Shown: positions 4,645-50,761 of the stretch, in pieces | Layout: each line of letters starts with the position of its first letter | Numbering within the stretch: the stretch's first letter is position 1 | NCBI GenBank assembly: GCA_937873495.1 | Contig: CALMXZ010000011.1 | Location: forward strand, 186,001-250,000 | Reading direction: 5' to 3' | Source of the DNA: an uncultured Trueperaceae bacterium | Lineage (GTDB): Bacteria; Deinococcota; Deinococci; Deinococcales; Trueperaceae | Length of the DNA: 64,000 nt | Made by a program: the position numbers and the translations under genes | Notes under the pieces: model-generated | Seen by the model: only the letters and a program-made list of their open reading frames with translations | Databases searched by the model: none | Told to the model about the DNA's origin: nothing

Positions 4645-6468
4645 TCAGCGCGGCGTGGTCGCACGCGGCCGCGCGGTGCTATATTGCTCTTCGCTTCGCC
4701 GTCGGCACCCCCGGCGCCACGTAGCCGATCCGCGCCCGTAGCTCAGTCGGATAGAGCGTTCGCCTCCGGAGCGAAAGGTCACAGGTTCGAATCCTGTCGG
4801 GCGCACCCAACGCACAAGGCTCGAACCTTGGCCCGAGGATTCAAGGGCTGGGGTTCGGGCCTTGTCGGCGTTCTCTGCCCAGGTGAGCGCGTCGGCGTTG
4901 ACCTCGGGGTCGAGCAGCATCTCGAAGGGCCGGTTGTTCTCGACGCGCAGTTCGTCGTCCTCCTCGATGTAGACCTTGGTGAAGAAGGCCTGGTTGCACA
5001 GGCGCCGGTTGGCGTCGTCGCAGCGGGCGTAGATGTCGGCGCAGTTCTCCAACAGGTTCAGGGCGTCGTCCAGGTGCGCGCGGGCGTCGGTGTACTCGCC
5101 GTGGTGGGCGTCGAGGCGGCGGTTCACCTGGTCGAGTTCTCCGGCGATGCGGTCTTGTTCCCGTTTGAGGACGGCGAGCGGGATCGCGTCGGCGTAGTGG
5201 GCCTGCATGAGCCGGTCTTGCTCGTGCTCCAGGCGGTCGCGGTTCGCGGTGAGCTGGGCGAGTTCGTCGGCTTCGGCGGACATCAGCCGGTCGAACTCGT
5301 GGTGCAGCATCCCGGCCAGAGCTTCGCGTCGGGCGGGGGTGAGTTGCACGCGCTGGTAGTAGTTCTCGATCAAGTGCTCGACGTCCTCGATGAGGATGGC
5401 CTGCCTCGTGCAGTCGGTCCGCTTGGAGTGCCGCCCTGAGCAGACGAAGTAGGGGTAGACGTTGCCGTGTCGGTTCTTCGCGTTTGACACGATGAGGCGG
5501 GACCCGCAGGCCCCGCAGTAGACGGTGCCTTTCAGGTAGTGGTCGTGCACCTGGGTTGCCTCGGATGCGCTCTTGTGCGCGGTGAGGACGGACTGCACCT
5601 GGTACCAGACCTCGGCCGGGACGAGCGGCTGGTGCGCACCCTTGTAGGCGACGCCGCGGTAGATCACGTCGCCCTTGTAGTACGGGTTCGTCAGCATTCG
5701 GTGTACCGAGGACACAGCGAGCGGTTTCGAGGGCCGCTTCGGGGTGGGAAGACTGACCAGCCCTCGCGACGTCAGCTCGTCGTGGATCTGGCTGACGGTC
5801 CAGTTCCCGGAGGCGTATGCCTTGTATGCCCACTCAATCAGCGGTGCCCGGTCGGGGTCGAGCTGCACCGTGCGAACTTCGCGGCCGAGCTCGTCGCGGG
5901 AACGGATGTTGAGGTAGCCGATCGGTGCCTTGCCGACCGTGCCGCCGGTGGCGGCTTTCTGCGTCATGCCCTTGATGACCTCGGTGGCGAGATTGCGGGA
6001 GTAGAACTCCGCGATCGTGGACATGATGCCGTGCAGCAGCATCCCGCTGGGGGTCTCGTCAATGTTCTCGGTCGCGGAGACGAGCATGACCCCGGCCTCC
6101 TGCAAGGCGAGGTGGATCGTTACGTCGTCGGCGCGGTTGCGGGCGAGCCGGTCGACCTTGTGGACGATGCAGTACGCGACACGGTTGCGCTTGACGTACT
6201 GGATCATCCGCATCAGCTCGGGCCGGTCGGCCTTGCGGGCGGACTCGCCCGCGTCGATGAACTCCTTCACGATGACCGCGCCGAGCTGTTCGGCCTTGCG
6301 GCGGTTGGCCTCGCGCTGGGCGGGAATGGAGAAGCCTTCATCGGTGCCGCCCTTCTCGGCTTGCTCCTTGGTGGAGACGCGCAGGTAGGACACCGCGAGT
6401 GCGGTGCCCTGGGGCGGTTCGATGAGACTGCGCACCGGGTCTGGAGTGCGCGCGGACGTGGTACTCAT
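4645..6468 (-). CDS. Large serine recombinase (integrase) whose 3' end crosses attL
   Basis: Integrates and excises the element at tRNA-Arg. The resolvase domain (about residues 25-170) has catalytic Ser32 in SYLRVSTKEQ and the HKVDRLARN motif. The recombinase domain follows (about 185-300), then a zinc ribbon (YCGACGSRL ... YFVCSG ... DC, about 317-355) and a charged coiled coil (about 375-470). Codon 555 falls on the att core. The remaining 52 codons (after LVRWV) are host sequence read antisense through tRNA-Arg, so the tail is not native. In the excised circle the frame would continue into the ORF at 52386-52859 instead. The ATG at 6468 is preceded by a structured leader. Confidence 0.93.
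   Translation of the reverse strand: MSTTSARTPDPVRSLIEPPQGTALAVSYLRVSTKEQAEKGGTDEGFSIPAQREANRRKAEQLGAVIVKEFIDAGESARKADRPELMRMIQYVKRNRVAYCIVHKVDRLARNRADDVTIHLALQEAGVMLVSATENIDETPSGMLLHGIMSTIAEFYSRNLATEVIKGMTQKAATGGTVGKAPIGYLNIRSRDELGREVRTVQLDPDRAPLIEWAYKAYASGNWTVSQIHDELTSRGLVSLPTPKRPSKPLAVSSVHRMLTNPYYKGDVIYRGVAYKGAHQPLVPAEVWYQVQSVLTAHKSASEATQVHDHYLKGTVYCGACGSRLIVSNAKNRHGNVYPYFVCSGRHSKRTDCTRQAILIEDVEHLIENYYQRVQLTPARREALAGMLHHEFDRLMSAEADELAQLTANRDRLEHEQDRLMQAHYADAIPLAVLKREQDRIAGELDQVNRRLDAHHGEYTDARAHLDDALNLLENCADIYARCDDANRRLCNQAFFTKVYIEEDDELRVENNRPFEMLLDPEVNADALTWAENADKARTPALESSGQGSSLVRWVRPTGFEPVTFRSGGERSIRLSYGRGSATWRRGCRRRSEEQYSTARPRATTPR
4732..4805 (+). tRNA. tRNA-Arg (anticodon CCG), insertion target of the element
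   Basis: All four arms fold: acceptor GCGCCCG/CGGGCGC, D-arm GCTCAGTCGGATAGAGC, anticodon stem TTCGC/GCGAA around a loop with CCG, and T-arm ACAGG-TTCGAAT-CCTGT. The discriminator is A4805. The next bases are CCC rather than CCA, because the inserted element begins here. Joining the left host sequence to base 52861 restores A-CCA, so the uninterrupted gene encoded its CCA end. After integration the terminal A must be supplied by tRNA nucleotidyltransferase following trimming. Confidence 0.97.
4803..4807. other. attL core of the integrated element
   Basis: The pentamer GCACC at the tRNA 3' end recurs at 52856-52860, preceded on both sides by GG and one variable base. Crossover within this core is predicted because swapping flanks restores both a complete tRNA 3' end with CCA and an uninterrupted recombinase reading frame. 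A very short shared core fits a large serine recombinase. Confidence 0.8.
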
Positions 6469-16498: not shown

Positions 16499-16771
16499 TC
16501 AGAGTTGGGTGCCGACGTCCAGCAGGAAGTTGAGCCACGCGACGCCGGCCCCGGCGAGAGCGGCGGCGCCGACCGCGACGAACAGACCCGTGCGAGCCTT
16601 GGTCGCCGCCTGATAGTTGCCGCTGGATGACGCGATCGCCCAGATGATGGCGCAGACGATGAGCATGAGCACGGCGGTGACGAGCACGAACATGAGCAGC
16701 GCGCCAACGATGGCGCGGAGGTCGGCGGCGCCGCCGACGCCGCCGAAGTCGGGGAACACATCCATGGTCAT
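16499..16771 (-). CDS. DUF6112 protein, VirB2-like, copy 1
   Basis: A 90-aa protein with two membrane helices (about 24-50 and 66-88) around a polar loop (SSSGNYQAATKARTG). Tandem with the similar 89-aa gene 78 bp downstream. Its ATG overlaps the TGA of a short upstream frame (ATGA at 16768-16771), so it was originally translated together with that gene, which is now split by IS1380. Because the insertion lies upstream, its expression may depend on a promoter from the IS or on internal starts. Confidence 0.78.
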   Translation of the reverse strand: MTMDVFPDFGGVGGAADLRAIVGALLMFVLVTAVLMLIVCAIIWAIASSSGNYQAATKARTGLFVAVGAAALAGAGVAWLNFLLDVGTQL

Positions 16772-16947
16772 CGTCCCACCGGCAGGGTCGGATGATGGAA
16801 GTGCCCGAATACGGAGTTAATAAGTGGCAGCTGCATGTCACTCAGGTACGTCGGGCCGCCCGCGATCACCGGGACGGTCGGCAGCAGCAGGAGGGACAAG
16901 GCAGTTATTCGTCGGTAGAACGCTGGTGTCCTGGGCGGGGGACTTAG
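16768..16947 (-). pseudogene. Small transfer-operon ORF split by IS1380 (C-terminal part)
   Basis: An open frame runs from the IS boundary to the TGA overlapping the DUF6112 start. It contains a hydrophobic stretch (TALSLLLLPTVPVIAGG) and then PTYLSDMQLPLINSVFGH. Removing IS1380 and one copy of the 5-bp target repeat joins it in frame to a possible GTG at 18633 (VITTL), giving about 63 aa. The hydrophobic segment and coupling to the VirB2-like gene suggest a small membrane or secreted transfer protein. Whether the intact ORF was a real gene is uncertain. Confidence 0.4.
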
Positions 16948-16965
16948 CCTCGATCCACCGATGAG
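16948..16965 (+). repeat. IS1380 left terminal inverted repeat
   Basis: CCTCGATCCACCGATGAG, an exact inverted match to 18599-18616. It is preceded by target repeat CTTAG at 16943-16947. Confidence 0.92.
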
Positions 16966-17068
16966 TTTGGGGTGTGAGCGGGTGCCGTGACACGGAAATG
17001 CCCCTCGGATCAGGGAAAATAGAGCTTGTCTAAGGTTCTAGTTCCCAGAAACGAGAGGCATCCCGTAG

Positions 17069-18475
17069 GTGCAATTCAAGCATGCTCCCGCTGCCGTGTC
17101 GGCGATGTTCGATGATCCGAATCTGGTGTCGGCCGTGGGGCTGGTTCCGATGCTCCGTCTCGCCCGTTCCGCGGGTCTCGACGAGCTCGCCCAGTCGCGG
17201 TTGACCGTCCCGACAGACAAGGGTGCGAACGCTGGCGGCAAGGTGATGGCGCTGGTGGCGGGGATGCTCGCCGGTGCGGACTCGATCGACGACATGAACG
17301 TGCTGCGTCACGGCGGGATGGGCCGGCTGTTCGATCGGACGTATGCGCCGTCGACGCTGGGCTCGTTCCTGCGGGAGTTCCGGTTCGGGCACGTCCGCCA
17401 GCTCGACGCCGTCGCCTCCCGGACCCTGGTGAACGTCGCGCAATCCGCGCCACTGCTGCAGGTCCGGGATGGTGAGCGGGTGATGGTGGATCTGGACGAC
17501 ACGATCATCGAAGTCCACGGATACCAGAAGCAGGGCGCGTCGTTCGGGTACTCCGGCGTCCGCGGCCTGAACGCCCTGTTCGCCACGGCGTCGACATCGC
17601 AGTCGGCGCCGGTGATCGTGGGGCAGCGGCTGCGGCAGGGGAAGACCGGTTCCCCGAAGGGTGCCGCCAGGATTGTCGGCGACGCTCTCGCGACGCTGCG
17701 CCGCTTGAACCCCGGAAGCAGTTCCCGGCCGTTGCTGCGGGCGGACTCCGCGTTCTACGGACACGCCACCATCGGCACGGCGATCAAAGCAGGCGCGGAC
17801 GTGTCGGTCACCGTCCGGATGGACCCCGCGGTGAAGGCGGCGATCGCGTCGATCCCCGAGGATGCGTGGGAGATGATCGAGTACACCGACTCGATCCGTG
17901 ACGAGGCCACCGGTCAGCTGATCTCGAAAGCAGAGGTCGCCGAAGTGGCCTTCACTGCGTTCCGTTCACGGAAGAAGGCCGAACGGGTCGACGGGCGGCT
18001 CGTGGTGCGGCGGATCCCGGACCTGAACCCGAACAAGGTGGAACAGCCGACGCTGTTCGACGTCTATCGGCATCACGCGTTCTTCACCACGACCGACAAG
18101 ACGACGATGGGCACCGTCGCGGCAGACAAGACCCACCGCGGTCACGCCATCATCGAACAGGTCCACGCCGATCTGAAGGGCGGTCCGCTCGCTCACCTGC
18201 CGTCCGGGGTGTTCACCGCGAACAGCGCCTGGCTCGTGCTCGCGGTGATCGCGTTCAACCTCACCCGCGCCGCCGGGCTGATCGCCGACCGGGCGGGTCG
18301 GCTCGCCCGAGCGACGACCGCGACGATCCGCCGAACCCTCATCTCGGTGCCGGCACGGCTGGCGCGGTCCGCGCGCCGGATCACCCTGCACCTGCCCGAG
18401 GCCTGGCCCTGGCAGACCGCGTTCGAACGGCTCTTCACCGCGACGCACGCGCCACCACCGGCAGCGGCCAGCTGA
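17069..18475 (+). CDS. IS1380-family transposase
   Basis: A 468-aa DDE transposase starting at a GTG. The catalytic carboxylates probably lie in VMVDLDDTIIEVHG (about residue 140), LLRADSAFYG (about 225) and the C-terminal RGHAIIEQVHADLKGGPLAH region (about 355). FFTTTDK and the terminal Arg-rich helical section are family features. Length is normal and no frameshift is seen, so the element may be active. It is transcribed opposite to the interrupted transfer operon. Confidence 0.93.
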   Translation: MQFKHAPAAVSAMFDDPNLVSAVGLVPMLRLARSAGLDELAQSRLTVPTDKGANAGGKVMALVAGMLAGADSIDDMNVLRHGGMGRLFDRTYAPSTLGSFLREFRFGHVRQLDAVASRTLVNVAQSAPLLQVRDGERVMVDLDDTIIEVHGYQKQGASFGYSGVRGLNALFATASTSQSAPVIVGQRLRQGKTGSPKGAARIVGDALATLRRLNPGSSSRPLLRADSAFYGHATIGTAIKAGADVSVTVRMDPAVKAAIASIPEDAWEMIEYTDSIRDEATGQLISKAEVAEVAFTAFRSRKKAERVDGRLVVRRIPDLNPNKVEQPTLFDVYRHHAFFTTTDKTTMGTVAADKTHRGHAIIEQVHADLKGGPLAHLPSGVFTANSAWLVLAVIAFNLTRAAGLIADRAGRLARATTATIRRTLISVPARLARSARRITLHLPEAWPWQTAFERLFTATHAPPPAAAS

Positions 18476-18598
18476 CTACCGCCGCCACCAGCGGCACGAC
18501 CGAGAACGAAGTGGACGACCGGGATGAGACGCCCGGAACTCACCCCTGCCCGCGGCAGATCAACCCACGTCGATCAGGCCGACGCCACCCGCCGAGGG

Positions 18599-18616
18599 CT
18601 CATCGGTGGATCGAGG
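18599..18616 (-). repeat. IS1380 right terminal inverted repeat
   Basis: Exact inverted copy of 16948-16965, followed by target repeat CTTAG at 18617-18621. Confidence 0.92.
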
Positions 18617-18621
18617 CTTAG

Positions 18622-18849
18622 CGTGGTGATCACGGCGACCAAGGACAGCGGTGAGCCCGGCGGTGAAGACTGACGGATGCCGCATAACGCCAACGAAACC
18701 GGTCAGCACTCCAGCAGCAAAGAGGGTTGGCCCGGGCGTCAGCAGGCGATCACCACGATTGCGGCTTCGCCCGTCTCCAGAAAGGTCAGCACGGTACGGG
18801 ACTGGTGGTGCGCCGCTTGTTCACCACATCGGGTCCGCCGGTGAAGGCG
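18622..18849. other. Stretch between IS1380 and merA without a recognised gene
   Basis: This holds the downstream side of merA and the possible start of the IS-split small ORF (GTG at 18633, minus strand). No mer transport gene (merT, merP, merC or merF), merB or clear terminator is recognised. Confidence 0.4.
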
Positions 18850-20280
18850 TCATACCGCGCAGCAGGAGAGTTTGGAGACGTCGGTGGTGAATGATTGGGC
18901 AGCGATCCTGATGCCTTCGGCCATCGTCAGATACGGGGCCCAGCTTCGGGAGACCTGTTCGAGTGTCATCCCGCCTTCGAGGATGTAGACACCGGCCGCG
19001 GCGAGTTCACCGGCGTCCTTGGCGACCGCAGTGAGTCCGAGGATGTGACCGGTGTCGGCGTCGACGACGATCTTGATCAAGCCGCGGGTGTCCCGGTTGA
19101 CCAGCGCGCGGGGCACGTATTTCAGGGGCAGGACCCGGCAGTCGCAGCGGATCCCCGAAGCGAGGACGTCTGCTTCGGTCATGCCCACCGCGGCTAGAGC
19201 GGGACTAGTGAACGTCACTCGTGGCAGGCGGGCGTAGTCGACAGTGCGGTCGGTGCTGGTGAACGCATTGTCGACGATCATCGCCCCGTGTTGCGCAGCG
19301 ACATAGACGAACTCGTGGTGCCCGGTCACGTCCCCGGCAGCCCAGACCCGCCGGTTCGTCGACTGGAGCTGGTCGCTGACCACGACTTCTCCGGCCTGGC
19401 CGGTGTTGACCCCGACGGCGTCGAGGTTGAGTCCCTCGGTGACCGGGCGACGGCCGGTGGCCACCAGCACACGGTCGGCTCGGAACTCCTGCTCGATGCC
19501 GGAGACGTTCGCCGTCGCGACAACCTGGCTGCTGGCCGGGTCGTGGAGCACGGAGGTGACCTCGGCGGGTCGAACAACGTGGATGCCTTCGTCGGCGAAC
19601 ACGTCCTCTAGGGCACGGGAGGCTTCGGGTTCCTCTCTTGATGCCAGCCGGGAGCGGACCACCATGGTCACCCGGGCGCCGAGTCGGGCGAACAACTGTG
19701 CTTGTTCCATCGCCACGTAGCCGCCCCCGAGCACGAGCAGAGAGTCGGGGACCTCGGTGAGTTCCATCGCGGTGGTCGAGGTCAGATAGTCCACGGTGGC
19801 CAGGCCGGGGATTGGTGCCGCCCAGGGGGCTGATCCCGTCGCGATCAGGTAGTGATCGGCCCTGATCGCCTCAGCCTTGCCGTCACCGGTGACGGTGTGC
19901 AGCAACGGGCCGTCCGGGGTCCCGGCGAACGACGCGTCGGCGTGCAGGACCCGCCACCCATAAGCGTCGGCCACGTCCTCGTACTTCTCACCGCGCAATG
20001 ACTCCACCAGTGACTGAGTGGCACCGACCAGGCCCGGCATGTCCACGGGGCCGGCCGCCGCCGCGATCCCCGGAAACCGCGCGGCATCGGAAGCTGTATG
20101 CCGCGCTTCTGCGGCTGCGAGCAGGCTCTTGGAGGGAATGCAACCGGTATTCACGCAGGTGCCCCCGAATGTTGACCGCTCGATCATCACCACCGACTTG
20201 CCTAGCCCGGTGGCCCGGATCGCTCCGGCGAAGGCCCCGCCGCCTGATCCGATAATCGCCAGATCGACCTTCGAGCCCAT
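18850..20280 (-). CDS. merA: Mercuric reductase MerA
   Basis: A 476-aa FAD/NAD(P)-linked disulfide oxidoreductase that reduces Hg(II) to volatile Hg(0) in the cytoplasm. It shows the N-terminal FAD motif (AIIGSGGGAFAGAI), the redox-active pair in GGTCVNTGCIPSK (Cys42/Cys47), a second nucleotide motif (LLVLGGGYVAMEQAQ), the WAAGDVTG motif, and the C-terminal vicinal cysteines in SKLSCCAV (Cys473/Cys474) that hand mercury to the active site. There is no N-terminal heavy-metal-associated domain. The ATG at 20280 is set by GGGAGGA upstream. It is divergent from merR. Confidence 0.95.
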   Translation of the reverse strand: MGSKVDLAIIGSGGGAFAGAIRATGLGKSVVMIERSTFGGTCVNTGCIPSKSLLAAAEARHTASDAARFPGIAAAAGPVDMPGLVGATQSLVESLRGEKYEDVADAYGWRVLHADASFAGTPDGPLLHTVTGDGKAEAIRADHYLIATGSAPWAAPIPGLATVDYLTSTTAMELTEVPDSLLVLGGGYVAMEQAQLFARLGARVTMVVRSRLASREEPEASRALEDVFADEGIHVVRPAEVTSVLHDPASSQVVATANVSGIEQEFRADRVLVATGRRPVTEGLNLDAVGVNTGQAGEVVVSDQLQSTNRRVWAAGDVTGHHEFVYVAAQHGAMIVDNAFTSTDRTVDYARLPRVTFTSPALAAVGMTEADVLASGIRCDCRVLPLKYVPRALVNRDTRGLIKIVVDADTGHILGLTAVAKDAGELAAAGVYILEGGMTLEQVSRSWAPYLTMAEGIRIAAQSFTTDVSKLSCCAV

Positions 20281-20327
20281 GATGTGTTCCTCCCAGACGT
20301 CGGTTCTCGCTCCGACCATCATTCTCA

Positions 20328-20349
20328 ACCTTCCACTACACTGGAAGGT
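20328..20349. promoter_or_regulatory. MerR-type operator-promoter between merA and merR
   Basis: A perfect 8-bp dyad, ACCTTCCA-6-TGGAAGGT, lies between the divergent genes. On the minus strand TTGACC overlaps one arm and a -10-like GAGAAT follows about 19-20 bp later. That over-long spacer is the hallmark of promoters activated by MerR through DNA untwisting. It is probably bidirectional, with merR repressing itself. Confidence 0.8.
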
Positions 20350-20373
20350 CAAGCGAGGGCGGAGGAGGACGTC

Positions 20374-20763
20374 ATGCGTATCGGGGAGCTGGCCCAAGTG
20401 GCGGGGGCGACCGCCAAAACCCTGCGGGTCTACGAAGACCAAGGAGTTCTACTACCTGCCGCGCGCACCGCAACGGGCTACCGCCATTATGGCCCGGAGA
20501 TTCTGGCCCGGCTCGACTTCATCCATCGCGGCCAGGCAGCAGGACTGACTCTTGCGCAAATCAGACAGATCCTCCAGATCCGCGACAGCGGGACGGCCCC
20601 GTGTGACCACGTTCGGGAACTGCTGGATATACGCCTGGCCGAAGTCGATGAGCAGATTGCCGAACTCGGCCGGCTGCGTGAGACCATCGGTCAGCTACGG
20701 ACGGCGGCTGAGCACGTTCAGCCCGAGACGTGTCAGGCTGGCGCGGTCTGCGCCTACCTTTAA
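20374..20763 (+). CDS. merR: MerR-family mercury-responsive regulator
   Basis: A 129-aa protein. The N-terminal winged HTH (MRIGELAQVAGATAKTLRVY) is followed by a long dimerisation helix and three cysteines: Cys77 in GTAPCDHV, Cys120 and Cys126 in the C-terminal CQAGAVC. Three metal-binding cysteines in this arrangement correspond to the mercury site of MerR. The divergent merA and the intervening operator support the assignment. Another thiophilic metal as inducer is possible but less likely. Confidence 0.92.
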   Translation: MRIGELAQVAGATAKTLRVYEDQGVLLPAARTATGYRHYGPEILARLDFIHRGQAAGLTLAQIRQILQIRDSGTAPCDHVRELLDIRLAEVDEQIAELGRLRETIGQLRTAAEHVQPETCQAGAVCAYL

Positions 20764-20800
20764 CGATCCCGGAACCCATTCGCCTGTGGGATCAATCCTG

Positions 20801-22465
20801 TCACCTCGGAGCGGTCGCGTAGCTGTTCCAGGCGGCGCCGGCGATCCCGGCCCATCGGGTGGCGGTGCCGATGTCGACACCGATGAGGTTGGCGAAAACG
20901 GCTGGCGGGGTGGTCGACGCGAGGTGCAGCAGGGCGGTGTTGCGGCTGGCTCGGATGGTGATCCCGAGCCGGCTCATCCGGGCCATGAGCGAGGGCGGCT
21001 GGAGGTGGGTGCCGGCGTTCTTGCCGGTGAACAGCCACCTGCGGTCGGCCAGGGCGCTTGCGGTGCCGAACGGCTTGGCGACGGGCAGCGCGGTGATCAG
21101 CGCGTCCAGGGGCGGAATGAGCAGCAGGGGTTCGCGGCCCAGGGCCAGATAGGTGTCGCTGTCGACGGCGCGGATGTCCGCAGTGGTGAGGGTGACGATC
21201 TTGGCAATGGGTTGGGCAAAGAGCAGGACCAGGCAGGCCGCGGCGCGGTCCTCGATGCTCGCACTGTCGCCGTCGTGCAGAAGCTGGCGGGCCAGGTCGA
21301 GTTGCTGGCCGGGGTCGATGTCGTGTCGCGGGTCCTTGCCGGGGATGGGTTTGGGCAGTCGGGTGCGCGCCAGGTATCCGCCGCGTTTGAGCCACCGGAT
21401 GAAGCCCAGCCGTCGGCTGCGGTCGACGATGATCCAGCCGTCGAGGCAGGCCTGGGGGCAGTCGTCCAGGTCGTGGTTGCGGGCGGTGAGGTGGTCGAAG
21501 AACGCTTTGGCGGTCTGGACGTCGCGGCGGCACCGGGCGGCGGTGGCTGCGGAGATATGGCCGTGACGGTTGGTCTTGGCGCGGCCGACGACGTGCCAGC
21601 GGGCGTACCGGGTGAGCACGCCGCGCAGCTCGGGATTGTCCACGCCGGCGACAGCGCGGATGGCGTAGCGGTGCAGGCGGGCAGCGTGCTCGTCCCGCGG
21701 AGGCAGCGCATCGGTCGCGACGAGCATGGCGCGCAGGTAGGTCACCGAGAACGTCTGCGGCCGGGCATCGAGGGCGTCGTGGGTCAGGCCGAGCTGGCCT
21801 TGGGCGATCTCGGCCAGCAGGTGCAGGCTGGCGAGGTTGTGCCAGTTGCTCAACAGCGATCGCGGGCGGCTGGTGGCGGTGAGAGCGTCGCGCACGGGCA
21901 GGAGCTCGGGCCGGATCGTGCCGTCGGGTCCGGTCAGCGCGGCCTCGATCTGCGCGGTGGCTTGGCAGGCGAAGCATCGTGGCCGGCCGTTGTTCGTCCT
22001 CAGGCGGCCGAGGGCTTGCTGGCCGCAGATGGAGCAGTCGATGACCGGGGCCTGGTAGCAGGTCGGGCAGACATCCGGGCTGGTCGCGGTGGCCTTGAGC
22101 GCGATGCGTTTGAGCCGGCCGCAGATGCCGCAGGGCCGTCGCGGGTTCCGGTAGCAGCGGGTGCAGAGATTCCGTGACGCTTCGCTCTTGCCGCCGCCTC
22201 TCGTGGCGAGCGGACCGATGGCTCCGCACTCCTCGCAGACGTCGTCGCCGGTGCGGACGCGGGCGTAGCAGGTCACGCAGAGAGCCCCGCCGTCTGGCGT
22301 GCGGGCATTGATCCTGCGCTGTCGTCCGCAGCCGGTGCAGGTCTCCTGCGGTGCGCGGGTGGCGCGGCAGGCTCGGCACTCGCCCCGGTCCAGGCTGTGG
22401 TTCCAGCGCAGGTTCTTCTCCCGTCCGCAGCGGAAGCAGACGCCGCGGACGATCGCGCTGGCCAC
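20801..22465 (-). CDS. Multi-zinc-ribbon, recombinase-like protein of a three-gene module
   Basis: A 554-aa protein. Residues 1-175 hold about five CxxC...CxxC zinc ribbons in tandem (CFRCG, CTGCG, CEECG, CGICG and CSICG, each with a partner pair). The rest is helical and resembles a tyrosine-recombinase fold (AKAFFDHLTARNHDLDDC ... RAAACLVLLFAQPIAKIVTL ... WLFTGKNAGTHLQP). I do not see the Arg...HxxR...H...Tyr catalytic set, so it may be catalytically dead and act as a DNA-binding partner. It is encoded directly after the XRE and tyrosine recombinase genes on the same strand. Confidence 0.65.
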   Translation of the reverse strand: MASAIVRGVCFRCGREKNLRWNHSLDRGECRACRATRAPQETCTGCGRQRRINARTPDGGALCVTCYARVRTGDDVCEECGAIGPLATRGGGKSEASRNLCTRCYRNPRRPCGICGRLKRIALKATATSPDVCPTCYQAPVIDCSICGQQALGRLRTNNGRPRCFACQATAQIEAALTGPDGTIRPELLPVRDALTATSRPRSLLSNWHNLASLHLLAEIAQGQLGLTHDALDARPQTFSVTYLRAMLVATDALPPRDEHAARLHRYAIRAVAGVDNPELRGVLTRYARWHVVGRAKTNRHGHISAATAARCRRDVQTAKAFFDHLTARNHDLDDCPQACLDGWIIVDRSRRLGFIRWLKRGGYLARTRLPKPIPGKDPRHDIDPGQQLDLARQLLHDGDSASIEDRAAACLVLLFAQPIAKIVTLTTADIRAVDSDTYLALGREPLLLIPPLDALITALPVAKPFGTASALADRRWLFTGKNAGTHLQPPSLMARMSRLGITIRASRNTALLHLASTTPPAVFANLIGVDIGTATRWAGIAGAAWNSYATAPR

Positions 22466-22472
22466 CAGTCGG

Positions 22473-22817
22473 TCAGTCCTGGGCCGGCTTGATCACCGCG
22501 CGGGTCGGGCGGTTCCTGCTGCCGGACTTCGGCGCCTTGGGCGTCCCGGTGGTGCCGGTCTTGCGTCCCCGCCGGGAACTCGAAGCGACGTAGGGCTCGA
22601 TGAGGTCGTTGGGGGTGGCGCCGAAGATGTCACACAGGGCCGCGAGGAGTTGCATGTTCAATCGCTCCGGGGTGCCGGTGACGATCCGGTAGACCTGCGT
22701 GGAGGTCATCACCACTCCCCGGTCGGCCAGCAGCGGCACCAGGCTGGTGGTGGAGTGCATGCCGTGCTCGTTCATCACCTTGCGCAGGTGCCAGTGGTAG
22801 GCGACGGTCTTGGTCAT
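22473..22817 (-). CDS. XRE/Cro-type regulator of the recombinase module
   Basis: A 114-aa protein. The N-terminal HTH region reads HLRKVMNEHGMHSTTSLVPL, followed by MTSTQVYRIVTGTPERLNMQ and LLAALCDIFGATPNDLIEPY, a standard Cro/C1 helix arrangement. The last 35 residues are basic and disordered (SSSRRGRKTGTTG). Its ATG overlaps the stop of the tyrosine recombinase gene (ATGA) and its stop is 7 bp before the zinc-ribbon gene, so the three form one operon. It probably represses this operon. Confidence 0.82.
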   Translation of the reverse strand: MTKTVAYHWHLRKVMNEHGMHSTTSLVPLLADRGVVMTSTQVYRIVTGTPERLNMQLLAALCDIFGATPNDLIEPYVASSSRRGRKTGTTGTPKAPKSGSRNRPTRAVIKPAQD

Positions 22818-23944
22818 CGGCTTGAGCCTTCCTCGATAGCAGGTGGCGGCGCGAACGCGGCGTCGAGGGCGCGGCGCAGGGTGCGGTTGCGGTAGTCGCC
22901 GGAGACCCCGGTGTAGAGGGCGGTGGTCGAGCCCCAGCGGTGGCCGACCTGCTGCTGGACGAACAGCGGATCGAAGCCATCCTCGATCAGATGGGTCACA
23001 TACGAGTGCCGCAGGCAGTGCGGGTGTAGCACCGGGTCCAGGCCGAGGTCGTCGCGCCAGTCGGCGAACCGGTCGTCGATATGGTCCAGGCGGATGCGGC
23101 TCTGCCGCTCGGTCGGCCACAGGACGGACTCGTCGGCGGTGTCGAAGCGGGGCCGGACCTCGGTGACATACTCCTCGATCACCGGTCGGGTCCAGTCGAA
23201 CACCGCCAGCACTGCCCGGCGCCGCGGTTGGGAGCCGCGCATCGCCTTGCCCCAGCGGACGTTGCAGACCCCGAACCGGCCGAACTCCGGGCCTTTCGGG
23301 TTGCGGGTGAAGTCGTGCAGGTCGAGCATCGCCGCCTCACGGCGGCGCAGGCCGAAAGCGTAGATGATCTTGAACAGCGTCGCATCGCGGAACAGCGTCT
23401 GCCAGCCCTTGCGGCCCGACGAACGTGCCCGGTCCACCAGATCGTCGGCGTAGTCGAAGAACGCCTGCAACTCCAACCTGCTCAGCGGTCGCACCGCCGG
23501 CCGCGCCTCGTGATCGCTGGTGTGGATGACGGTGTTCCACTCGTGGCAGACCTGCACCGGGTGCGTGCCGAACAGCTCCATGCACCGATCCGCCCACCCG
23601 TACCGGTGGTCGGTCAGATAGTCGCAGAACAGCGCCACCGAGTTCTGGTACGCCCGCACCGTAGAGGTCGACAACGGCCGCGCGCCCGAGACCAACGAGG
23701 TCGTCCACTCCTCGACATCGGCCGGGGACCACTCCCACGGTGGCGAGCCGCAGAAATCACCGAACCGCCGCACCTGCGAGGCCCTCGTCTTGATCGTCTG
23801 CGTCGTCAGCATCCGGGAGGTCTGCTGGGCCGTCCAGCCGGTCAGCATCTCATCGAAGAACTGCTCCGACGGGCGCAGCAGCGTCACCTTGCCAGCCGAC
23901 GCTGAAGCCCCGGAACCAGGCCCCTGGCCGTCCACGAACACCAT
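22814..23944 (-). CDS. Tyrosine recombinase (phage-integrase family)
   Basis: A 376-aa protein. A SAM-like core-binding domain (about 40-135) precedes the catalytic domain: Arg in IIYAFGLRRREAAML (about 205), HPHCLRHSYVTHL (about 315) with the His-x-x-Arg pair, GHRWGSTT (about 340) and the nucleophile Tyr in TALYTG a few residues on. All key residues are present. AAGGTGG precedes the ATG. A 37-bp recombinase-type site starts only 9 bp upstream of the start codon, implying autoregulation or a linked recombination site. Confidence 0.9.
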   Translation of the reverse strand: MVFVDGQGPGSGASASAGKVTLLRPSEQFFDEMLTGWTAQQTSRMLTTQTIKTRASQVRRFGDFCGSPPWEWSPADVEEWTTSLVSGARPLSTSTVRAYQNSVALFCDYLTDHRYGWADRCMELFGTHPVQVCHEWNTVIHTSDHEARPAVRPLSRLELQAFFDYADDLVDRARSSGRKGWQTLFRDATLFKIIYAFGLRRREAAMLDLHDFTRNPKGPEFGRFGVCNVRWGKAMRGSQPRRRAVLAVFDWTRPVIEEYVTEVRPRFDTADESVLWPTERQSRIRLDHIDDRFADWRDDLGLDPVLHPHCLRHSYVTHLIEDGFDPLFVQQQVGHRWGSTTALYTGVSGDYRNRTLRRALDAAFAPPPAIEEGSSR

Positions 23945-23952
23945 ACGACCAC

Positions 23953-23989
23953 CTTACATTAGATGTACGAATCATGCGTCAAATGTAAG
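23953..23989 (+). repeat. 37-bp recombinase-type site, copy 1
   Basis: Contains imperfect inverted arms (TTACATT ... AATGTAA) around ATGTACGAATC. It matches the copy at 24074-24110 in the same orientation at about 27 of 37 positions. It lies just upstream of the tyrosine recombinase start, so it may be its binding site, operator or an att half. Confidence 0.6.
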
Positions 23990-24073
23990 ATCTGTTGCGA
24001 AATAACTGGTCAGAGGGGGTTGCCGGTGCTACGTTCCAGGAGCACGCGCCCCCGTGGCCGGGTGTGAATCCGC

Positions 24074-24110
24074 CGTACATCTAATGTACGAATCGTACAG
24101 TAGATGTAAC
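24074..24110 (+). repeat. 37-bp recombinase-type site, copy 2
   Basis: Direct copy of 23953-23989, sharing the uninterrupted block ATGTACGAATC and outer TACAT/ATGTAA arms. It ends 8 bp before the stop codon of the M23 peptidase gene, marking the boundary between the recombinase module and the conserved transfer operon. Confidence 0.6.
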
Positions 24111-24118
24111 TTCCGAGA

Positions 24119-25735
24119 TTATTCTCGGACGGTGATGTGCAGGTGGTCGTAGTGCCCGCCTGTGATGTCCGAGGGGTCGTGCATGCCCCCGCCGTTGTAG
24201 GGCCGCCAGCCCTCGTCGGCGCGAGCGAGCGACCAGATCTTGCCTTGCCAGATGAGATACTCGACTCCGAGGGCGGCGGCGTTGGCCTGCAGCCAGTTCG
24301 TCATCGCCCACCCCGTGTCGAGGGCGGCGCCGGTCGCGGCCGTTCCGATGGTGTTCCCGAAGGTCACATCGCACGCTCTGCCGAGCGGGTGTTCCGACGA
24401 GGTGCCGGGTCGCGGTGACCAGCAGGCCCAGCCGGAGTCGGGAAACGCGGCCCGGGTCTGTGTGAGCAGGTGCTCCATGCGGGCAGTGATCTGGCCGCCG
24501 CTCGTCGGATCGTCCCGAAGCTCGTCAGGATCGGTACCTGTGTACGGTGTTGGCGCGGCGATGTTCGGCCCCGGAGCGCAACCTGCGTTTGGTGCCGTGC
24601 TCGCGCCGGATTCAGCGGCGCCGTGGTCGGTGAGCCAGGCGTCGGAGTTCACCGGGTCGGCGTCTGCGCCGCCGGGGTGGATTTGCAGGTGCAGGTGAGG
24701 GCCGGTGGAGTGTCCCGAGGAGCCGACGTCTCCGATGCGCTGCCCGGCGGTCACGGTGTCGCCTTCTGCGACATGGATGCCGTGCGCCCACATGTGCACG
24801 TACATCGACGCGACCCGCTCGCCCCGGACGGTGTGCTCGATGACGATGACCCCGCCTCCTGCGTCGGTGTATCCGGCTCGCACGACGATGCCGTCCGCGA
24901 CGGCGTAGATGGGGGTGCCGTCGAGGGCGGCGAAGTCGCTGCCTGCGTGGAAGCGGCGTTCGCCGGTGATCGGGTCGTTACGCCATCCGAACGGGCTCGT
25001 CCGCGCCCAGGTCCCCTCCGGCAGCGGGAACACGATGCGCGTCGTCTCGGGCACGACGGGCGTCTCGTCCCCGCCATCGTTGCCGGAGGACACGGGACGG
25101 GTCAGGGCGGTGAGGATCGCTTCGGCGACCGGCTGGTAGTTCTGATACCGGTCCGGGTAGGCGCTGACCTCGACGGCTTGGGCTGCTTCGCCGGGGTCGA
25201 GCTGCTGCCAGCCGGCGATGTCGAGCAGGCCCCGCGGCGATGGGTAGTTCGGGCCCGTGGGGCCACCGTAGAAGGCTCTCGCCTGGTAGCTGGGGTCCAT
25301 GAGCTCCGCGACTGTGCCCCACCCGCTGACCGGGCGCATCTGAAACAGCCCGAGCGAGTCGTGATCCGAACCCTCGCCGTCGTTGGGGTACTCCGCCGAC
25401 TCGGGATAGGCGCTCGTGTTGGCGAGCATCCGCAGGGTCGACTCGGTCAGCGCAGCCATCAGCGCGATCAGCACCCCTTCACGTCCGACGCCGGCTGTCT
25501 GCCCGCCGACCGTGATGATCGTCGCGGCGTGGGTGAGCTGTTGCCGGTTCAGCGTGACCGTCTCCCCGTTGCGGGTCGTCGCGGTCAGCGAGTCCGGGAT
25601 CGGGCCGACCGCCAACGAGCCGGGCGTGCAGACGGCGGCGGTCGCAGGTGTTCCGCCGAGCGTGGCGACGCCCAGCAGGATCGTGGACGGCCCCAGGAGC
25701 AGCAAGGTGAGGGCGAGGAGCGCGAGCTTCTTCAT
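24119..25735 (-). CDS. Secreted M23 peptidase with second wall-hydrolase-like domain
   Basis: A 538-aa exported protein with an N-terminal signal sequence (KKLALLALTLLLLGPSTILL). Residues about 40-215 resemble a lytic-transglycosylase-like lysozyme fold (VLIALMAALTESTLR ... DSLGLFQMRP). The M23/LytM metallopeptidase follows, with its zinc ligands in RRFHAGSDFAA and GPHLHLQIH (about 265-360). The C-terminal domain has SEHPLGRACDVTF and HYDHLHITV, an M15/M74-like His-Asp...HxH pattern. Such multi-domain enzymes open peptidoglycan for the conjugation channel. The start ATG is 25735. It is followed by the cargo insertion. Confidence 0.85.
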   Translation of the reverse strand: MKKLALLALTLLLLGPSTILLGVATLGGTPATAAVCTPGSLAVGPIPDSLTATTRNGETVTLNRQQLTHAATIITVGGQTAGVGREGVLIALMAALTESTLRMLANTSAYPESAEYPNDGEGSDHDSLGLFQMRPVSGWGTVAELMDPSYQARAFYGGPTGPNYPSPRGLLDIAGWQQLDPGEAAQAVEVSAYPDRYQNYQPVAEAILTALTRPVSSGNDGGDETPVVPETTRIVFPLPEGTWARTSPFGWRNDPITGERRFHAGSDFAALDGTPIYAVADGIVVRAGYTDAGGGVIVIEHTVRGERVASMYVHMWAHGIHVAEGDTVTAGQRIGDVGSSGHSTGPHLHLQIHPGGADADPVNSDAWLTDHGAAESGASTAPNAGCAPGPNIAAPTPYTGTDPDELRDDPTSGGQITARMEHLLTQTRAAFPDSGWACWSPRPGTSSEHPLGRACDVTFGNTIGTAATGAALDTGWAMTNWLQANAAALGVEYLIWQGKIWSLARADEGWRPYNGGGMHDPSDITGGHYDHLHITVRE

Positions 25736-25747
25736 CACGGCCTCGGC

Positions 25748-36078: not shown

Positions 36079-37602
36079 TTAGTGGGTGTTGTCTTCGTAG
36101 GCGGAGGCGGTGCTGCCGGGTCCGTACTGTCGGAGCAGCCACCCGGTGGTGATGACGCCTGCGGCGATCACGACGGCGATGATGATCATGATGGTCGTGT
36201 AGCCGCTGTTGAACGCGATAGCGGCGGCGTCGAGCAGGCCCGGATGGTCGCTGGCGAGGTCGCGGGCGGTGGCGATGCTGTCGGCGGCTTCGGCAGGGGC
36301 GCCCTGGGGGAGGTGGATGCGGGAGGTGTAGAAGAGGGAGAGGAGGCTGCCGAGGACGGCGACGGCGATGAGGCTGCCGAACTCGTAGGACACTTCCTCG
36401 ACCGAGGCTGCCATACCGGCCTTGCGTGGGGGGACGTTCCCCACGATCGCGGTCGATGCGACTGACATCGTGGCCCCCAATCCGGCGCCGGTGACGGCGA
36501 GCCCGGCCACGAATACCGGGAACGCGGTCTGCACTCCGATGAGGGTGATGATCATGCCGATTGTGGCGAGGGTGAAGCCTCCGCTGATGATGATGCGCAG
36601 CCCGAGCCTGTGCAGGAACGCGCCGCCGAGAATCCCGGTGGGCAGAGCCCCGATCGCGACAGCGGCCACGAGGAGTCCTGCTTGGAGTGGGGTGAACCCG
36701 TCGACGAGTTGGAAGCGTTGCGTGGTGACCAGTTGGATGCCGCCGATGGCGAACATTGCGGTCGCTGCGGTGATGATCCCGGCGCTGAACGCGCGGTTGC
36801 GGAACACCCCGAAGTCCAGCAGCGGATCGTTCGAGCGGAGCTGGCGTCTGGTGAACAGGACACCGCCGATGGCCGCGACGACCGTGGCGCCTGCGACGAT
36901 CGCCCAGTTCTGCGGGGTGTGGGCGGCTTCTTTGATCGCGAGGACCGCGCCGGTGAGGGTGAGGAGGGCGTAGAGGGAGGAGATCGCATCCCACTTCTTC
37001 GCCCGGTCCCGGGTTCCTGCAGGGACGACGAGCGGGGTGAGGATGAGGGCTGCGATCACGACGGGGATGTTGATGAGGAACACCGACCCCCACCAGAACC
37101 GCTCCAACAGTGCACCCCCGACGATGGGTCCGAGCGCGGCGCCGACCACGGAGATGCTGCCCCAGATCGCGATCGCGATGTTCCGCTCCCGCACGTCATC
37201 GAACCCGAGCCGGATCAGCGCGAGAGTGGCGGGCATCATGCACGCCGCCCCCACCGCGAGGAGCGCACGCGCACCGATCAGGACCTCCGGTGTCGGGGAG
37301 AACGCGGCCACCAGCGACGCCGCCCCGAAGAGCGTGAGACCGACCAGGAAGAGACGGCGATGCCCGAACCGGTCACCCAAGGTTCCCGACCCCAGCAGCA
37401 GGCCCGCCATCACCAGCGGGTAGGCGTTGATGATCCACAGGCCTTGGGAGGCCGACGCGCCCAGGTCCACCGTCAGGGTGGGCAGGGCGGTGTAGAGGAT
37501 CGAGTTGTCGAGCGTGATCAGCAACAGGCCGAACGCGACAGTCACCAGCAGCACCCACCGCCGCGATGACAGCGATGACGCTTGAGTGTTCACAGTGTTC
37601 AT
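36079..37602 (-). CDS. MFS multidrug exporter, DHA2 (QacA/SmvA-like)
   Basis: A 507-aa protein with 14 predicted membrane helices. DHA2 motifs are visible: LLLITLDNSILYTALPTL (motif with Asp in helix 1), GLWIINAYPLVMAGLLL, GTLGDRFGHRRLFLVGL (motif A), and an MMPATLALIR/GPIVGGALLERF region corresponding to motif C. It would expel cationic drugs or biocides using the proton gradient. A TetR gene sits immediately upstream in the same direction and probably controls it. The segment looks like captured actinobacterial chromosomal DNA. Confidence 0.9.
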   Translation of the reverse strand: MNTVNTQASSLSSRRWVLLVTVAFGLLLITLDNSILYTALPTLTVDLGASASQGLWIINAYPLVMAGLLLGSGTLGDRFGHRRLFLVGLTLFGAASLVAAFSPTPEVLIGARALLAVGAACMMPATLALIRLGFDDVRERNIAIAIWGSISVVGAALGPIVGGALLERFWWGSVFLINIPVVIAALILTPLVVPAGTRDRAKKWDAISSLYALLTLTGAVLAIKEAAHTPQNWAIVAGATVVAAIGGVLFTRRQLRSNDPLLDFGVFRNRAFSAGIITAATAMFAIGGIQLVTTQRFQLVDGFTPLQAGLLVAAVAIGALPTGILGGAFLHRLGLRIIISGGFTLATIGMIITLIGVQTAFPVFVAGLAVTGAGLGATMSVASTAIVGNVPPRKAGMAASVEEVSYEFGSLIAVAVLGSLLSLFYTSRIHLPQGAPAEAADSIATARDLASDHPGLLDAAAIAFNSGYTTIMIIIAVVIAAGVITTGWLLRQYGPGSTASAYEDNTH

Positions 37603-37675
37603 GTGCGGGGATGCCTTCTTGTGTCAGGAGTTCTTTCGATCATTGCGCCCGGCCGGTTGCCATAGATTCTTGTGT

Positions 37676-38248
37676 TCATCGCGCAGAGTCCGTGCTGGTG
37701 GTGTCCAGGGAGGCGGCGATGTGTTCCAGGAGCTGCACCCGCAGAGCCTGCGGGATGGGCTCCCCGGTGAGGGCTTCGTAGCTCCACAGCCCGTCGGCGG
37801 CCATCCGTGCGGTCAGCATCCGCAGCTCCTCCCGCGGATACCTGTCGTCCACGCCGGGCTGAGGGAGCGGGGTCGTCCACCGCGCGGCCACTTCCGCACA
37901 GGGTGCGAAGAGGTCACGGTGCGCGGCGCCGTCAGCCATGAACACCAGTTCCGCGCGGGTCATCGACCGGGCCGCGACCCGCACATACGCCGCCAACCGC
38001 TCAGCACGGGTCGCCTCAGAAGCGGGTTTCCCGGCGGCTGAGACCATCTCCTTCTCCCAGTCGGCCGCCAACTGCTCATACACCCCACTCAGCAGTGCCG
38101 TCCGGCTCGGGAAGTGATACAGCAGGCCCCCCTTGGTGATGCCCGCCTGCTCGGCGACAGCGTCGATCGTCACCGCAGACAGCCCCTGCTCCTCAGCGAC
38201 CCGCATCGCCGTCTCGACGATCGCAGACTTCTTACTCGGCCTCACCAC
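37676..38248 (-). CDS. TetR-family repressor of the MFS exporter
   Basis: About 190 aa. The N-terminal HTH (KKSAIVETAMRVAEEQGLSA ... VAEQAGITKGGLLYHFPSR) is typical of TetR proteins. The C-terminal ligand-binding part resembles TetR_C_33-like domains (LVFMADGAAHRDLF). A GTG at 38248 preceded by GGAGG is the likely start. A 20-bp dyad lies 46 bp upstream. Located 73 bp before the MFS gene, it presumably represses that gene and the divergent small membrane-protein gene. Confidence 0.88.
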   Translation of the reverse strand: MVRPSKKSAIVETAMRVAEEQGLSAVTIDAVAEQAGITKGGLLYHFPSRTALLSGVYEQLAADWEKEMVSAAGKPASEATRAERLAAYVRVAARSMTRAELVFMADGAAHRDLFAPCAEVAARWTTPLPQPGVDDRYPREELRMLTARMAADGLWSYEALTGEPIPQALRVQLLEHIAASLDTTSTDSAR

Positions 38249-38293
38249 CGTGCCGCCTCCTCCGTATCGACGCCGTACCTCACCAACCACTAG

Positions 38294-48549: not shown

Positions 48550-48602
48550 GTGTGATCCTGATCGGCTGGTCTTCTCAACTTGAGGAGACAGGAGAGCAGT
48601 TC

Positions 48603-49829
48603 ATGGTCAGGATCGAGATCGAGGGACGCGGTGTGCTCATCGCCGGTCCACTGGAAGACATAGCCCGCCGGTTCGAGGACGAGCTTGTCCGGCGGGGGTT
48701 CACGCGGAAGTCGCTGATGAACCAGTTGCGGCTGCTGGCCCATCTGTCCCGGTGGCTGCAGGCGCAGGGCATCGCGGTGGGCGAGTTGACGGCGGGGCAG
48801 GTCGAGGTGTTCCTCGCTGAGCGGCGCCGCACCCACACGGGCCTGTTCTCGCGAAAGGCGCTTGGCCCGACGCTGGAATGGCTCGCCTACGAGGGCGTGA
48901 TCCCGGCCGCGGCGACCATCGCGCCGACGGCTACGGATCCGGTGGAGTTGGTCGGGTTTGAGGGGTATCTGCGCGTTGAGCGTCACCTGGCGGCGTCCAC
49001 GATCGCGGCAAACGTGGCCCGGGCGCGCAGGTTCCTCGCCGGGTATGCCCCGCCAGAAGGAGCGGTCGCGTTGACCGCGGCGGAGGTGACGCGGGCGCTA
49101 TTGGACGAGGGCGTCACCCGTCGCCCGGTGTCGGTGAAGGCGTTCGGATACACGCTCCGGGCGCTGCTGAGGTTCTTCTTCATCACCGGTGTGACGAGTC
49201 ACGACCTTTCGGCGGCGACGCTGGTGATCCGTTCCCCGCAACCCTCCCGCCTTCCCGTCGGCGCGAGTCGCGACGAGGTGGCTGCACTCTTGGTCTCTTG
49301 CGACCGTGACACCAGCGCGGGACTGCGCGACCACGCGGTGCTCTTGCTCCTGGCCCACCTCGGGCTGCGTGCGATCGAGGTCGCCCGGCTCCGACTGGAC
49401 GACCTCGACTGGCGCCGTGGCGAGATTCTCGTGCGGGGCAAGGGCAATCGTGACGAGCGGCTCCCGCTGCCCGCCGAGGTCGGTGAAGCGGTCGTCGCCT
49501 ACCTGCAAGAGGCGCGCCCTGCCGGAGTCGGGTTCCGGGAGGTGTTCGCCGCCGACCGCGCGCCGCTTCGTCCCTTGACACGGGAAGCGGTCGGCGGGAT
49601 CGTCGAACGCGCCTGCGACCGGGCGAGCCTGGCGAGGTTCGGGGCGCACCGGCTGCGGCACACCCTCGGCGAGCAGATGGTCGCCGCCGCGGTCCCGCTG
49701 GACGCGATCGGGCAAGTGCTGAGACACGAGACGGCGCTGACAACCGCGGGCTACGCGCGCGTCGATGTCACGGCGCTGCGCGACCTGGCGCAACCCTGGC
49801 CCGCCATGACGGGCGGCGGTCGGTCATGA
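48603..49829 (+). CDS. ritA: RIT tyrosine recombinase A
   Basis: A 408-aa protein. The N-terminal SAM-like domain (about 45-130) is followed by a catalytic domain with Arg in HLGLRAIEVARLRL, HRLRHTLGEQM with the His-x-x-Arg pair, a histidine in LRHETALT and Tyr in TAGYARVD. The ATG at 48603 is selected by AGGAGA eight bases upstream; a frame from 48552 lacks this. The stop overlaps ritB (ATGA). Confidence 0.92.
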   Translation: MVRIEIEGRGVLIAGPLEDIARRFEDELVRRGFTRKSLMNQLRLLAHLSRWLQAQGIAVGELTAGQVEVFLAERRRTHTGLFSRKALGPTLEWLAYEGVIPAAATIAPTATDPVELVGFEGYLRVERHLAASTIAANVARARRFLAGYAPPEGAVALTAAEVTRALLDEGVTRRPVSVKAFGYTLRALLRFFFITGVTSHDLSAATLVIRSPQPSRLPVGASRDEVAALLVSCDRDTSAGLRDHAVLLLLAHLGLRAIEVARLRLDDLDWRRGEILVRGKGNRDERLPLPAEVGEAVVAYLQEARPAGVGFREVFAADRAPLRPLTREAVGGIVERACDRASLARFGAHRLRHTLGEQMVAAAVPLDAIGQVLRHETALTTAGYARVDVTALRDLAQPWPAMTGGGRS

Positions 49830-50761
49830 TCGCCTGGGAAGCGCACGTCGATGACTACTTGCGGCTGCGCCGCCAGCTCGGATTCACCCTGGTCTGGGAC
49901 GAGCACCTCCTCGGACAGTTCACGACGCACCTGAACGCCGCCGGGGCCAGGCTCCTGACGACGACGGCGATGATCGACTGGGCCGGTCTGCCTCGCCCCG
50001 ACGGCGGGGCCGGAGCATCACGCGCGGCAGTGAGGATGAGGGCGGTGCGCTCGTTCGCCGCCTACATGCACGCCCTCGACCCAGCCCACGAGGTCCCGCC
50101 CGCGGCGGTGTTCTCGCACCAGACGCGACGGACCACGCCCTACATCTACACGCCCGGCGAGATCACCGGTCTGCTGGAAGCGGCTGGCCGGCTGCGGCGA
50201 TACGAGCGTTCGCGGATCTTCCCGGTCGTGTTCGGGCTCCTCGCGGCGACGGGCATGAGAGTCGGGGAACTCCTCGCGCTCGATGCCGACGAGGTCGACC
50301 TGGACGCCGGGATCATCACGGTCAGCCGCGGCAAGTCCCGCGACCCCCGGCTCGTCCCCGTCCATGCCACGACAGCGGCGACGCTCGCCGAGTATGCCGC
50401 CCGGCGCGCCGATCGCACGGCGCAGTCCGCGGCGTTCTTCATTGATCACCGCGGCAGGCGGCTGTCTCGCTGCAACACGCAGTATGCGTTCGAGCGGGCC
50501 CGCGAGGCCGCTGGCCTGACCGCGGGCGGGGCCAGGCCGCGGATGCACGATCTGCGGCACACGTTCGCGGTCACGACGCTGCTGGGCTGGTATCGCGAGG
50601 GGGCGGACGTCGCGGGCCTGCTGCCGAGGCTGTCGACCTACCTCGGCCACAGCAACCCGGCCAACACCTACTGGTATCTCACCGCCGTCCCGGAGCTGCT
50701 CGCCCACGCCGCCCGCATGCTCAACATCGCACAGCAGACGACGCGGGAGGCGCGCACATGA
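49826..50761 (+). CDS. ritB: RIT tyrosine recombinase B
   Basis: A 311-aa protein. The catalytic region shows GLLAATGMRVGELLALD (Arg I), MHDLRHTFAVTTLL (His-x-x-Arg), YLGHSNPANTYWYLT with the second histidine and the nucleophile tyrosine. The core-binding domain is at residues 1-105. The length is typical. It overlaps ritA and ritC by four bases each. Confidence 0.92.
   Translation: MIAWEAHVDDYLRLRRQLGFTLVWDEHLLGQFTTHLNAAGARLLTTTAMIDWAGLPRPDGGAGASRAAVRMRAVRSFAAYMHALDPAHEVPPAAVFSHQTRRTTPYIYTPGEITGLLEAAGRLRRYERSRIFPVVFGLLAATGMRVGELLALDADEVDLDAGIITVSRGKSRDPRLVPVHATTAATLAEYAARRADRTAQSAAFFIDHRGRRLSRCNTQYAFERAREAAGLTAGGARPRMHDLRHTFAVTTLLGWYREGADVAGLLPRLSTYLGHSNPANTYWYLTAVPELLAHAARMLNIAQQTTREART

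Follow-up and report, generated by a model that had tools for sequence, protein, structure and literature searches.

The question raised by this locus is whether three tightly packed genes lying among the transfer genes of a conjugative element belong to that element or drive a smaller one of their own. The locus lies in a 64,000-nucleotide stretch of contig CALMXZ010000011.1 (positions 186,001 to 250,000) from an uncultured Trueperaceae bacterium, referred to here as the window, and consists of a tight minus-strand operon (23944-20801) with genes for a tyrosine recombinase (YR), an XRE protein and a protein of 554 aa. A preliminary description had read it as a mobile unit that captures cargo and is lodged between conserved genes for transfer. 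The comparisons below bear this out, as a precise unit was found in divergent flanks together with a natural empty site, and the locus is assigned, with a probability of about 85%, to a site-specific, non-conjugative mobile element of the YR type nested in an integrative and conjugative element (ICE).

Ends, target and evidence for movement

The trio was found in other genomes, and the closest 22 public-genome loci, labelled actinobacterial, kept it in all cases. In nearly all of them its position within the colinear transfer backbone was the same, and the DNA from the 554-aa gene (gene 3) to a DUF6112 gene was variable, so that in these relatives the trio marks the boundary of variable cargo, a pattern that the preliminary description had proposed looking for. 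The whole element (7,345 bp, 16777-24121) was delimited from the break-points of identity with the Leucobacter locus L002 and in other pairs of loci, and from an empty site in L025; both true ends, 24121 and 16777, lie outside the stretch of 20801-24110 delimited earlier.

The ends and gene 3 were 99.7-100% identical between the window and L002, set in flanks of 76 and 73% identity. L004 and L005 had 6,282 bp in common (flanks 77 and 72%), L014 and L022 had 4,008 bp in common (flanks 69 and 72%), and L007 and L008 each had a common unit of 3,866 bp with L010, the left flank being 80-81% identical; for L020 and L021 the gene 3 segment was 100% identical and the left flank 51%. Across the pairs measured, identity extended just 0-3 bp beyond each end. 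Conversely, L004 and L008 were 96% identical in the left flank and 53% at the right end; they have this flank in common but carry different element classes. The natural empty site was found in a Microbacterium plasmid (L025), where the peptidase and DUF6112 genes are directly joined; compared with the filled locus L010, its flanks were 98.9-99.7% identical over 1 kb per side, with no duplicated base. These sequence comparisons show that the trio is part of a discrete mobile element whose insertion is precise and target-specific and makes no target duplication, and whose autonomous core consists of the trio and two dissimilar ends (3,866 bp at its smallest).

The same data bear on a different explanation, in which the trio has long been a fixed accessory of this ICE family, such as a dimer-resolution or cargo-exchange module, and its apparent movement is homologous recombination between ICEs. 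The unchanged place of the trio in the backbone of nearly all close relatives counts for this explanation. A point against a mobile element is that in L009, L011, L013, L015, L020 and L021 the outer left end could not be placed. Yet in several independent pairs identity falls away no more than 0-3 bp from the same two ends, where homologous recombination would be expected to break elsewhere in flanks of 70-80% identity; a near-identical ICE segment is cleanly free of the trio, and distant relatives sit in other targets. The empty site and the break-points largely refute recombination between ICEs as the source of movement, and this explanation is considered very unlikely.

An edge alignment of relatives showed two conserved, dissimilar ends. 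The left end (16777-16850), which is distal to the cargo and adjoins the DUF6112 gene, reads CACCGGCAGGGTCGGATGATGG...CAGGTACG (profile match E=5.9e-10) and was kept in all loci where it was reached; before DUF6112 it closes as ...GCCGGTn, in the same reading direction as the right end. The right terminus (24106-24121) reads TAATCTCGGAAGTTAC from the outside in and ends the peptidase reading frame by providing its stop codon; after the peptidase gene the right end reads TAAnnTCnGAAGTTACATC, and AACTAGCAATTATTAC in class-b elements. Neither end shares overlap sequence with the target. The gene that is interrupted encodes an M23 peptidase of the conjugative element (24119-25738, minus strand; Peptidase_M23 E=7.3e-26), and the DUF6112 gene of the same conjugative element (16499-16771, minus strand; E=3e-42), which adjoins the peptidase gene directly in the empty site, lies on the other side. 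Within the HxDHxH stretch a GAC codon is conserved (GAC then CAC/CAT...), the insertion point falls 24 nt past it, and the distance from the HxDHxH codons to the insertion was constant in all loci. The target is a single set point close to the 3' end of the peptidase gene, directly before DUF6112, at which the incoming element adds a new stop codon. In this subfamily every copy has an M23-peptidase gene on one side and a DUF6112 gene on the other within a conjugative element, the islands entered in this way being those of Gram-positive soil bacteria.

That the trio lies between ICE transfer genes could also mean that it serves the ICE itself as a regulatory or integrase module. The ICE (~48 kb, 4808-52947) was mapped to the 3' end of a tRNA-Arg gene, since genomes of the same genus align to 4807 and resume at ~52948. 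It has its own large serine integrase (4645-6468; Resolvase/Recombinase domains) beside the tRNA-Arg, at the boundary where same-genus homology ends; an integrase module of the ICE would sit at this boundary, whereas the trio does not. A related ICE without the trio also exists, and this explanation is regarded as scarcely credible.

The L002 element is otherwise near-identical to that of the window, and its YR gene is split by ~1.4 kb (L002 7757-9188); because the YR gene is interrupted, the Leucobacter copy is probably inactive.

The recombinase, its probable dead partner and the palindromic sites

Gene calls, profiles and residues confirmed the three-gene module of the preliminary description, that is, a YR, an XRE regulator and a tightly coupled, five-ribbon dead recombinase-like protein. 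Gene 1 (22814-23944, minus strand) encodes a catalytically intact YR of 376 aa (Phage_integrase E=3.9e-16), in which R200, H309, R312, H335 and Y344 are present and invariant across aligned homologues. Gene 2 (22473-22817, minus strand) encodes the XRE/HTH_26 protein of 114 aa (HTH_26 E=2.3e-12), its start overlapping the YR stop (ATGA), and gene 3 (20801-22465, minus strand) starts 7 nt past it. The gene 3 protein carries five N-terminal zinc ribbons followed by a YR-like region without the catalytic residues. Its ten CxxC pairs form five four-cysteine ribbons (C10/13/30/33, C43/46/63/66, C77/80/101/104, C112/115/133/136 and C144/147/164/167), all of whose cysteines are invariant in the alignments, and the second Arg (R508) is the only residue of the R-H-R-H-Y set that is retained.

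No family was assigned to gene 3 by Pfam, NCBIfam or PHROGs, and a PDB sequence search returned only internalin matches, which were judged spurious. Comparing a profile of 20 diverse gene 3 relatives with one of 19 tyrosine recombinases in hhalign gave a match of E=1.3e-6 spanning the core-binding and catalytic regions, the best value among controls (reversed profile, column shuffles) being E=0.17; against other YRs, the gene 3 profile scored E=3.9e-5. Several results weigh against this relationship. No match was seen when the partner recombinases were used on their own (E=0.74), nor between gene 3 and its own partner YR with shallow alignments, and significance required the inclusion of distant relatives and diverse YRs. 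Two AlphaFold models of gene 3 were poor (pLDDT 63), and although XerH and Cre were the top Foldseek matches of these models, they were not significant. Structure prediction, which the preliminary description had proposed as a check on the 554-aa protein, thus bears the relationship out weakly. As the models are poor, the YR ancestry of gene 3 rests on the profile comparison, by which gene 3 is likely a dead YR paralogue.

The two 37-bp sites with inverted arms that were described beside the operon are real, palindromic and unique in the window: no further copy of the motif was found within it, and three matches arose in 0 of 100 shuffles. The inner site (23953-23989) lies 9 nt upstream of the YR start codon and was present in every aligned locus, its core GATGCATGATTC being common to the window element and distant families. 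The outer site (24074-24110) lies ~11 bp inside the right terminus, and in class-b elements only about one arm of it is left. The two are 73% identical over 40 bp, and each is an imperfect palindrome. Their role as crossover points had to be given up. Both sit inside the right end of the element instead of on either side of the cargo, class-b elements with about one arm of the outer site are still mobile, and the break-points fall at 24121/24122 and 16776/16777.

A mechanism can be proposed from these parts. The YR would be the sole strand-exchange enzyme, and the zinc-ribbon protein, its presumed dead paralogue, would pair with it on the core sites and may recognise the target, order the complex, or both. 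The XRE protein, to judge from its domain, may bind the palindromic sites ahead of the YR gene and so control the operon, directionality, or both. Since the second exchange of strands could be blocked by a dead protomer, strand-biased replicative ('copy-out') movement is held to be somewhat likelier than simple excision. The lack of overlap with the target would likewise suit heterology-tolerant or one-strand recombinases, as proposed for strand-biased circularizing integrative elements (SEs; PMC10214605).

Alternatively, the same element may move by conservative excision and integration in the manner of phages and ICEs, the zinc-ribbon protein acting as an excisionase or DNA-bending factor outside the complex. 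Many ICEs and phages manage with a single active YR, and a natural empty site does exist, though this could equally be a target that was never occupied. Against conservative excision, gene 3 aligns with the core-binding and catalytic regions of YRs, which would be unusual for an excisionase, the ends have no overlap sequence with the target, and several identical copies occur in one strain. Conservative movement is therefore seen as possible, though on balance doubtful.

Cargo, relatives and host

The cargo occupies the DNA from gene 3 to the left end. In the window it comprises merA, a mercuric-reductase-like pyridine nucleotide-disulphide oxidoreductase gene (18850-20280, minus strand; Pyr_redox_2 E=9.7e-58) assigned from its sequence and its MerR partner, and a divergent gene for this MerR-family regulator (20374-20763, plus strand), an open reading frame whose family was assigned by reading its sequence and not by profile search. 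An IS1380-like insertion sequence lies inside the cargo (16948-18616, plus strand; transposase 17069-18475, DDE_Tnp_1_4), with 18-bp inverted ends and a 5-bp target duplication (CTTAG). It is absent from the near-identical L002 copy, and it entered the cargo after the split from that copy. Other cargoes included a heavy-metal P-type ATPase in L003, E1-E2 ATPases in L011 and L015, and an MFS exporter in L007. L012 had an SBF-type (ACR3-like) transporter together with a gene for a low-molecular-weight phosphatase (arsenate-reductase-like), while a cadmium transporter was present in L020 and a multicopper oxidase in L013.

Junctions of a left with a right end were found inside the cargo of L012, L015 and L018, which implies older elements standing in tandem behind newer ones. 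The older copy in L012 and L015 retained mer, a short gene 3 tail and the right end and had lost the trio, and a longer gene 3 tail was retained in L003. As an older tandem copy without the trio still has its cargo, cargo accumulates, and accretion followed by decay is read from these sequences as one route of cargo build-up. Elsewhere in the window, an MFS exporter and a TetR-like gene were noted at 36079-38290, the exporter part having 72% DNA identity to the cargo of L007 and L008; the pair came into this ICE by a different route.

Beyond the closest loci, gene 3 relatives were found in >230 plasmid records, mainly of Streptomyces, Rhodococcus and Arthrobacter, and the trio gene order was the same in most of the plasmids inspected; one more distant case came from Variovorax. 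Phage records gave no match and viral contigs one relative (L031). A whole Paenarthrobacter plasmid of 4,712 bp (L032) comprises little beyond the trio; it may be an element of this kind in circular form, or else a plasmid that one has captured.

Distant relatives follow the same plan with other targets, often inserting just past the catalytic-tyrosine codon of other recombinase genes. In subfamily 2, one strain of Mycolicibacterium aubagnense carried the same element in two different Tn554-like elements, over an exactly identical span of 6,337 bp with MFS and MerR-family genes (L029 5721-12057), and both insertions break tnpA a few codons past the catalytic tyrosine. Related copies occupied the equivalent place in other recombinase-like frames in L027, L028, L030 and L031, and an IS3-like frame in L042, these targets being identified by reading. 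The subfamily-2 right end (CTCGGGAATTGCATC) is similar to the one in the window (CTCGGAAGTTACATC). In this subfamily (L029, L041, L030, L028, L027 and L031), the C-terminal tail of the recombinase was replaced by an element-encoded one, RELHQTGENLLVA or similar.

Extending from these relatives, the trio may represent a distinct class of YR transposon, common across Actinomycetota, in which an active recombinase and a dead one with zinc ribbons form an obligate pair for one-strand copy-out recombination. The dead partner would pick highly specific sites in genes of other mobile elements, often just past the catalytic-tyrosine codon of rival recombinases, and the transposons would in this way live as parasites of ICEs, plasmids and other transposons while stacking resistance cargo. 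This wider proposal is tentative, and its chances are put a little short of even.

The host chromosome is of another phylum. Ribosomal protein L2 gave best scores of 471 and 469 bits against PDB chains of Deinococcus and Thermus, compared with 378 bits against mycobacteria, and purH and a malic-enzyme-like gene beside the ICE (names by reading) were 93-95% identical in two same-genus genomes, which are without the ICE. The peptidase and gene 3 were absent from the genomes of the host's phylum that were examined, and trio-less ICEs sought in the host's relatives yielded none usable for comparison because those relatives have no such ICE. With actinobacterial relatives of the ICE on the one hand and a Deinococcota chromosome on the other, the element apparently crossed phyla, as an actinobacterial-type ICE that underwent inter-phylum transfer.

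Relation to described elements and meaning

The closest described counterparts are the 'XER modules' of Arthrobacter plasmids (PMC6305408, 2018), predicted in silico as a YR, an XRE gene, 'XerC' and passenger genes at umuCD. They have a three-gene core in the same order and variable passengers, as here, and the pA8H1 module is homologous to the trio, with a gene 3 relative by tblastn, a YR of 45% identity and the same gene order. The preliminary description was thus right that this kind of unit is poorly described, but it is not undescribed. As far as the available text of that source goes, gene 3 is called 'XerC', and nothing is said of ends, an empty site, zinc ribbons, lost catalysis or a rule for the target. 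The modules are placed there between umuC and umuD, whereas the junction of the M23 peptidase and DUF6112 genes is used here, which is a difference of target within the class; and they were reported from Arthrobacter, whereas the element here has reached another phylum. In the literature searched, subscription papers being outside its scope, neither the ends and the target rule nor the zinc ribbons and the loss of catalysis were found described.

SEs (PMC10214605) resemble the element in having an operon at one end followed by cargo, imperfect inverted ends and specific targets, and their Tfp, a YR-fold protein without RHRY, may be analogous to gene 3. They differ in having two active RHRY recombinases (intA, intB) and Srap, where the element has a single active YR together with an XRE protein and a probable dead YR that bears zinc ribbons; srap has no counterpart here, as the operon ends at gene 3 and variable cargo follows. 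A 6-bp footprint of the SE type looks unlikely, since the bases on the side of the left end (CCGGTn) are conserved across elements and so element-specific, and resemble neither target bases nor a footprint of earlier targets. GInts (PMC5385486) have a similar tripartite plan, with cargo right after the last operon gene and a short far end, and their partner GinC, without the first catalytic Arg, is comparable to gene 3; but they have four genes (ginABCD) with two complete integrases and GinD, and zinc ribbons or an XRE protein are not described for them, whereas here there is one intact YR and gene 2 is XRE.

Tn554 and actinobacterial Tn554-like elements (PMC3414803), into whose tnpA genes subfamily-2 trio elements insert, are also YR-driven site-specific transposons with a long YR partner and cargo. 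In Tn554, TnpA and TnpB both carry the catalytic motif and TnpC is third, and here no TnpC-like gene is in the operon. Recombinase-in-trio (RIT) elements likewise have a three-gene recombination operon, but all three of their YRs have a catalytic tyrosine, compared with one here (gene 2 being HTH_26 and gene 3 dead). Membership of SEs, GInts, Tn554 or RITs fails because each requires at least two active recombinases. A separate RIT-like triple, three overlapping YR-like genes (425, 311 and 330 aa), was noted near the right end of the ICE (48552-51750).

The element explains how actinobacterial conjugative elements and plasmids gain and stack genes for mercury, arsenic and cadmium, heavy-metal ATPases and efflux, and the trio together with its ends and target provides a searchable signature. 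It also provides a natural case of a recombinase alongside a likely dead paralogue, which makes a one-strand, SE-like mechanism testable, and the targeting of the region encoding the YR active site by subfamily 2 would be element-on-element parasitism. The window itself documents that such an element recently entered a Deinococcota chromosome as part of an ICE whose relatives are actinobacterial.

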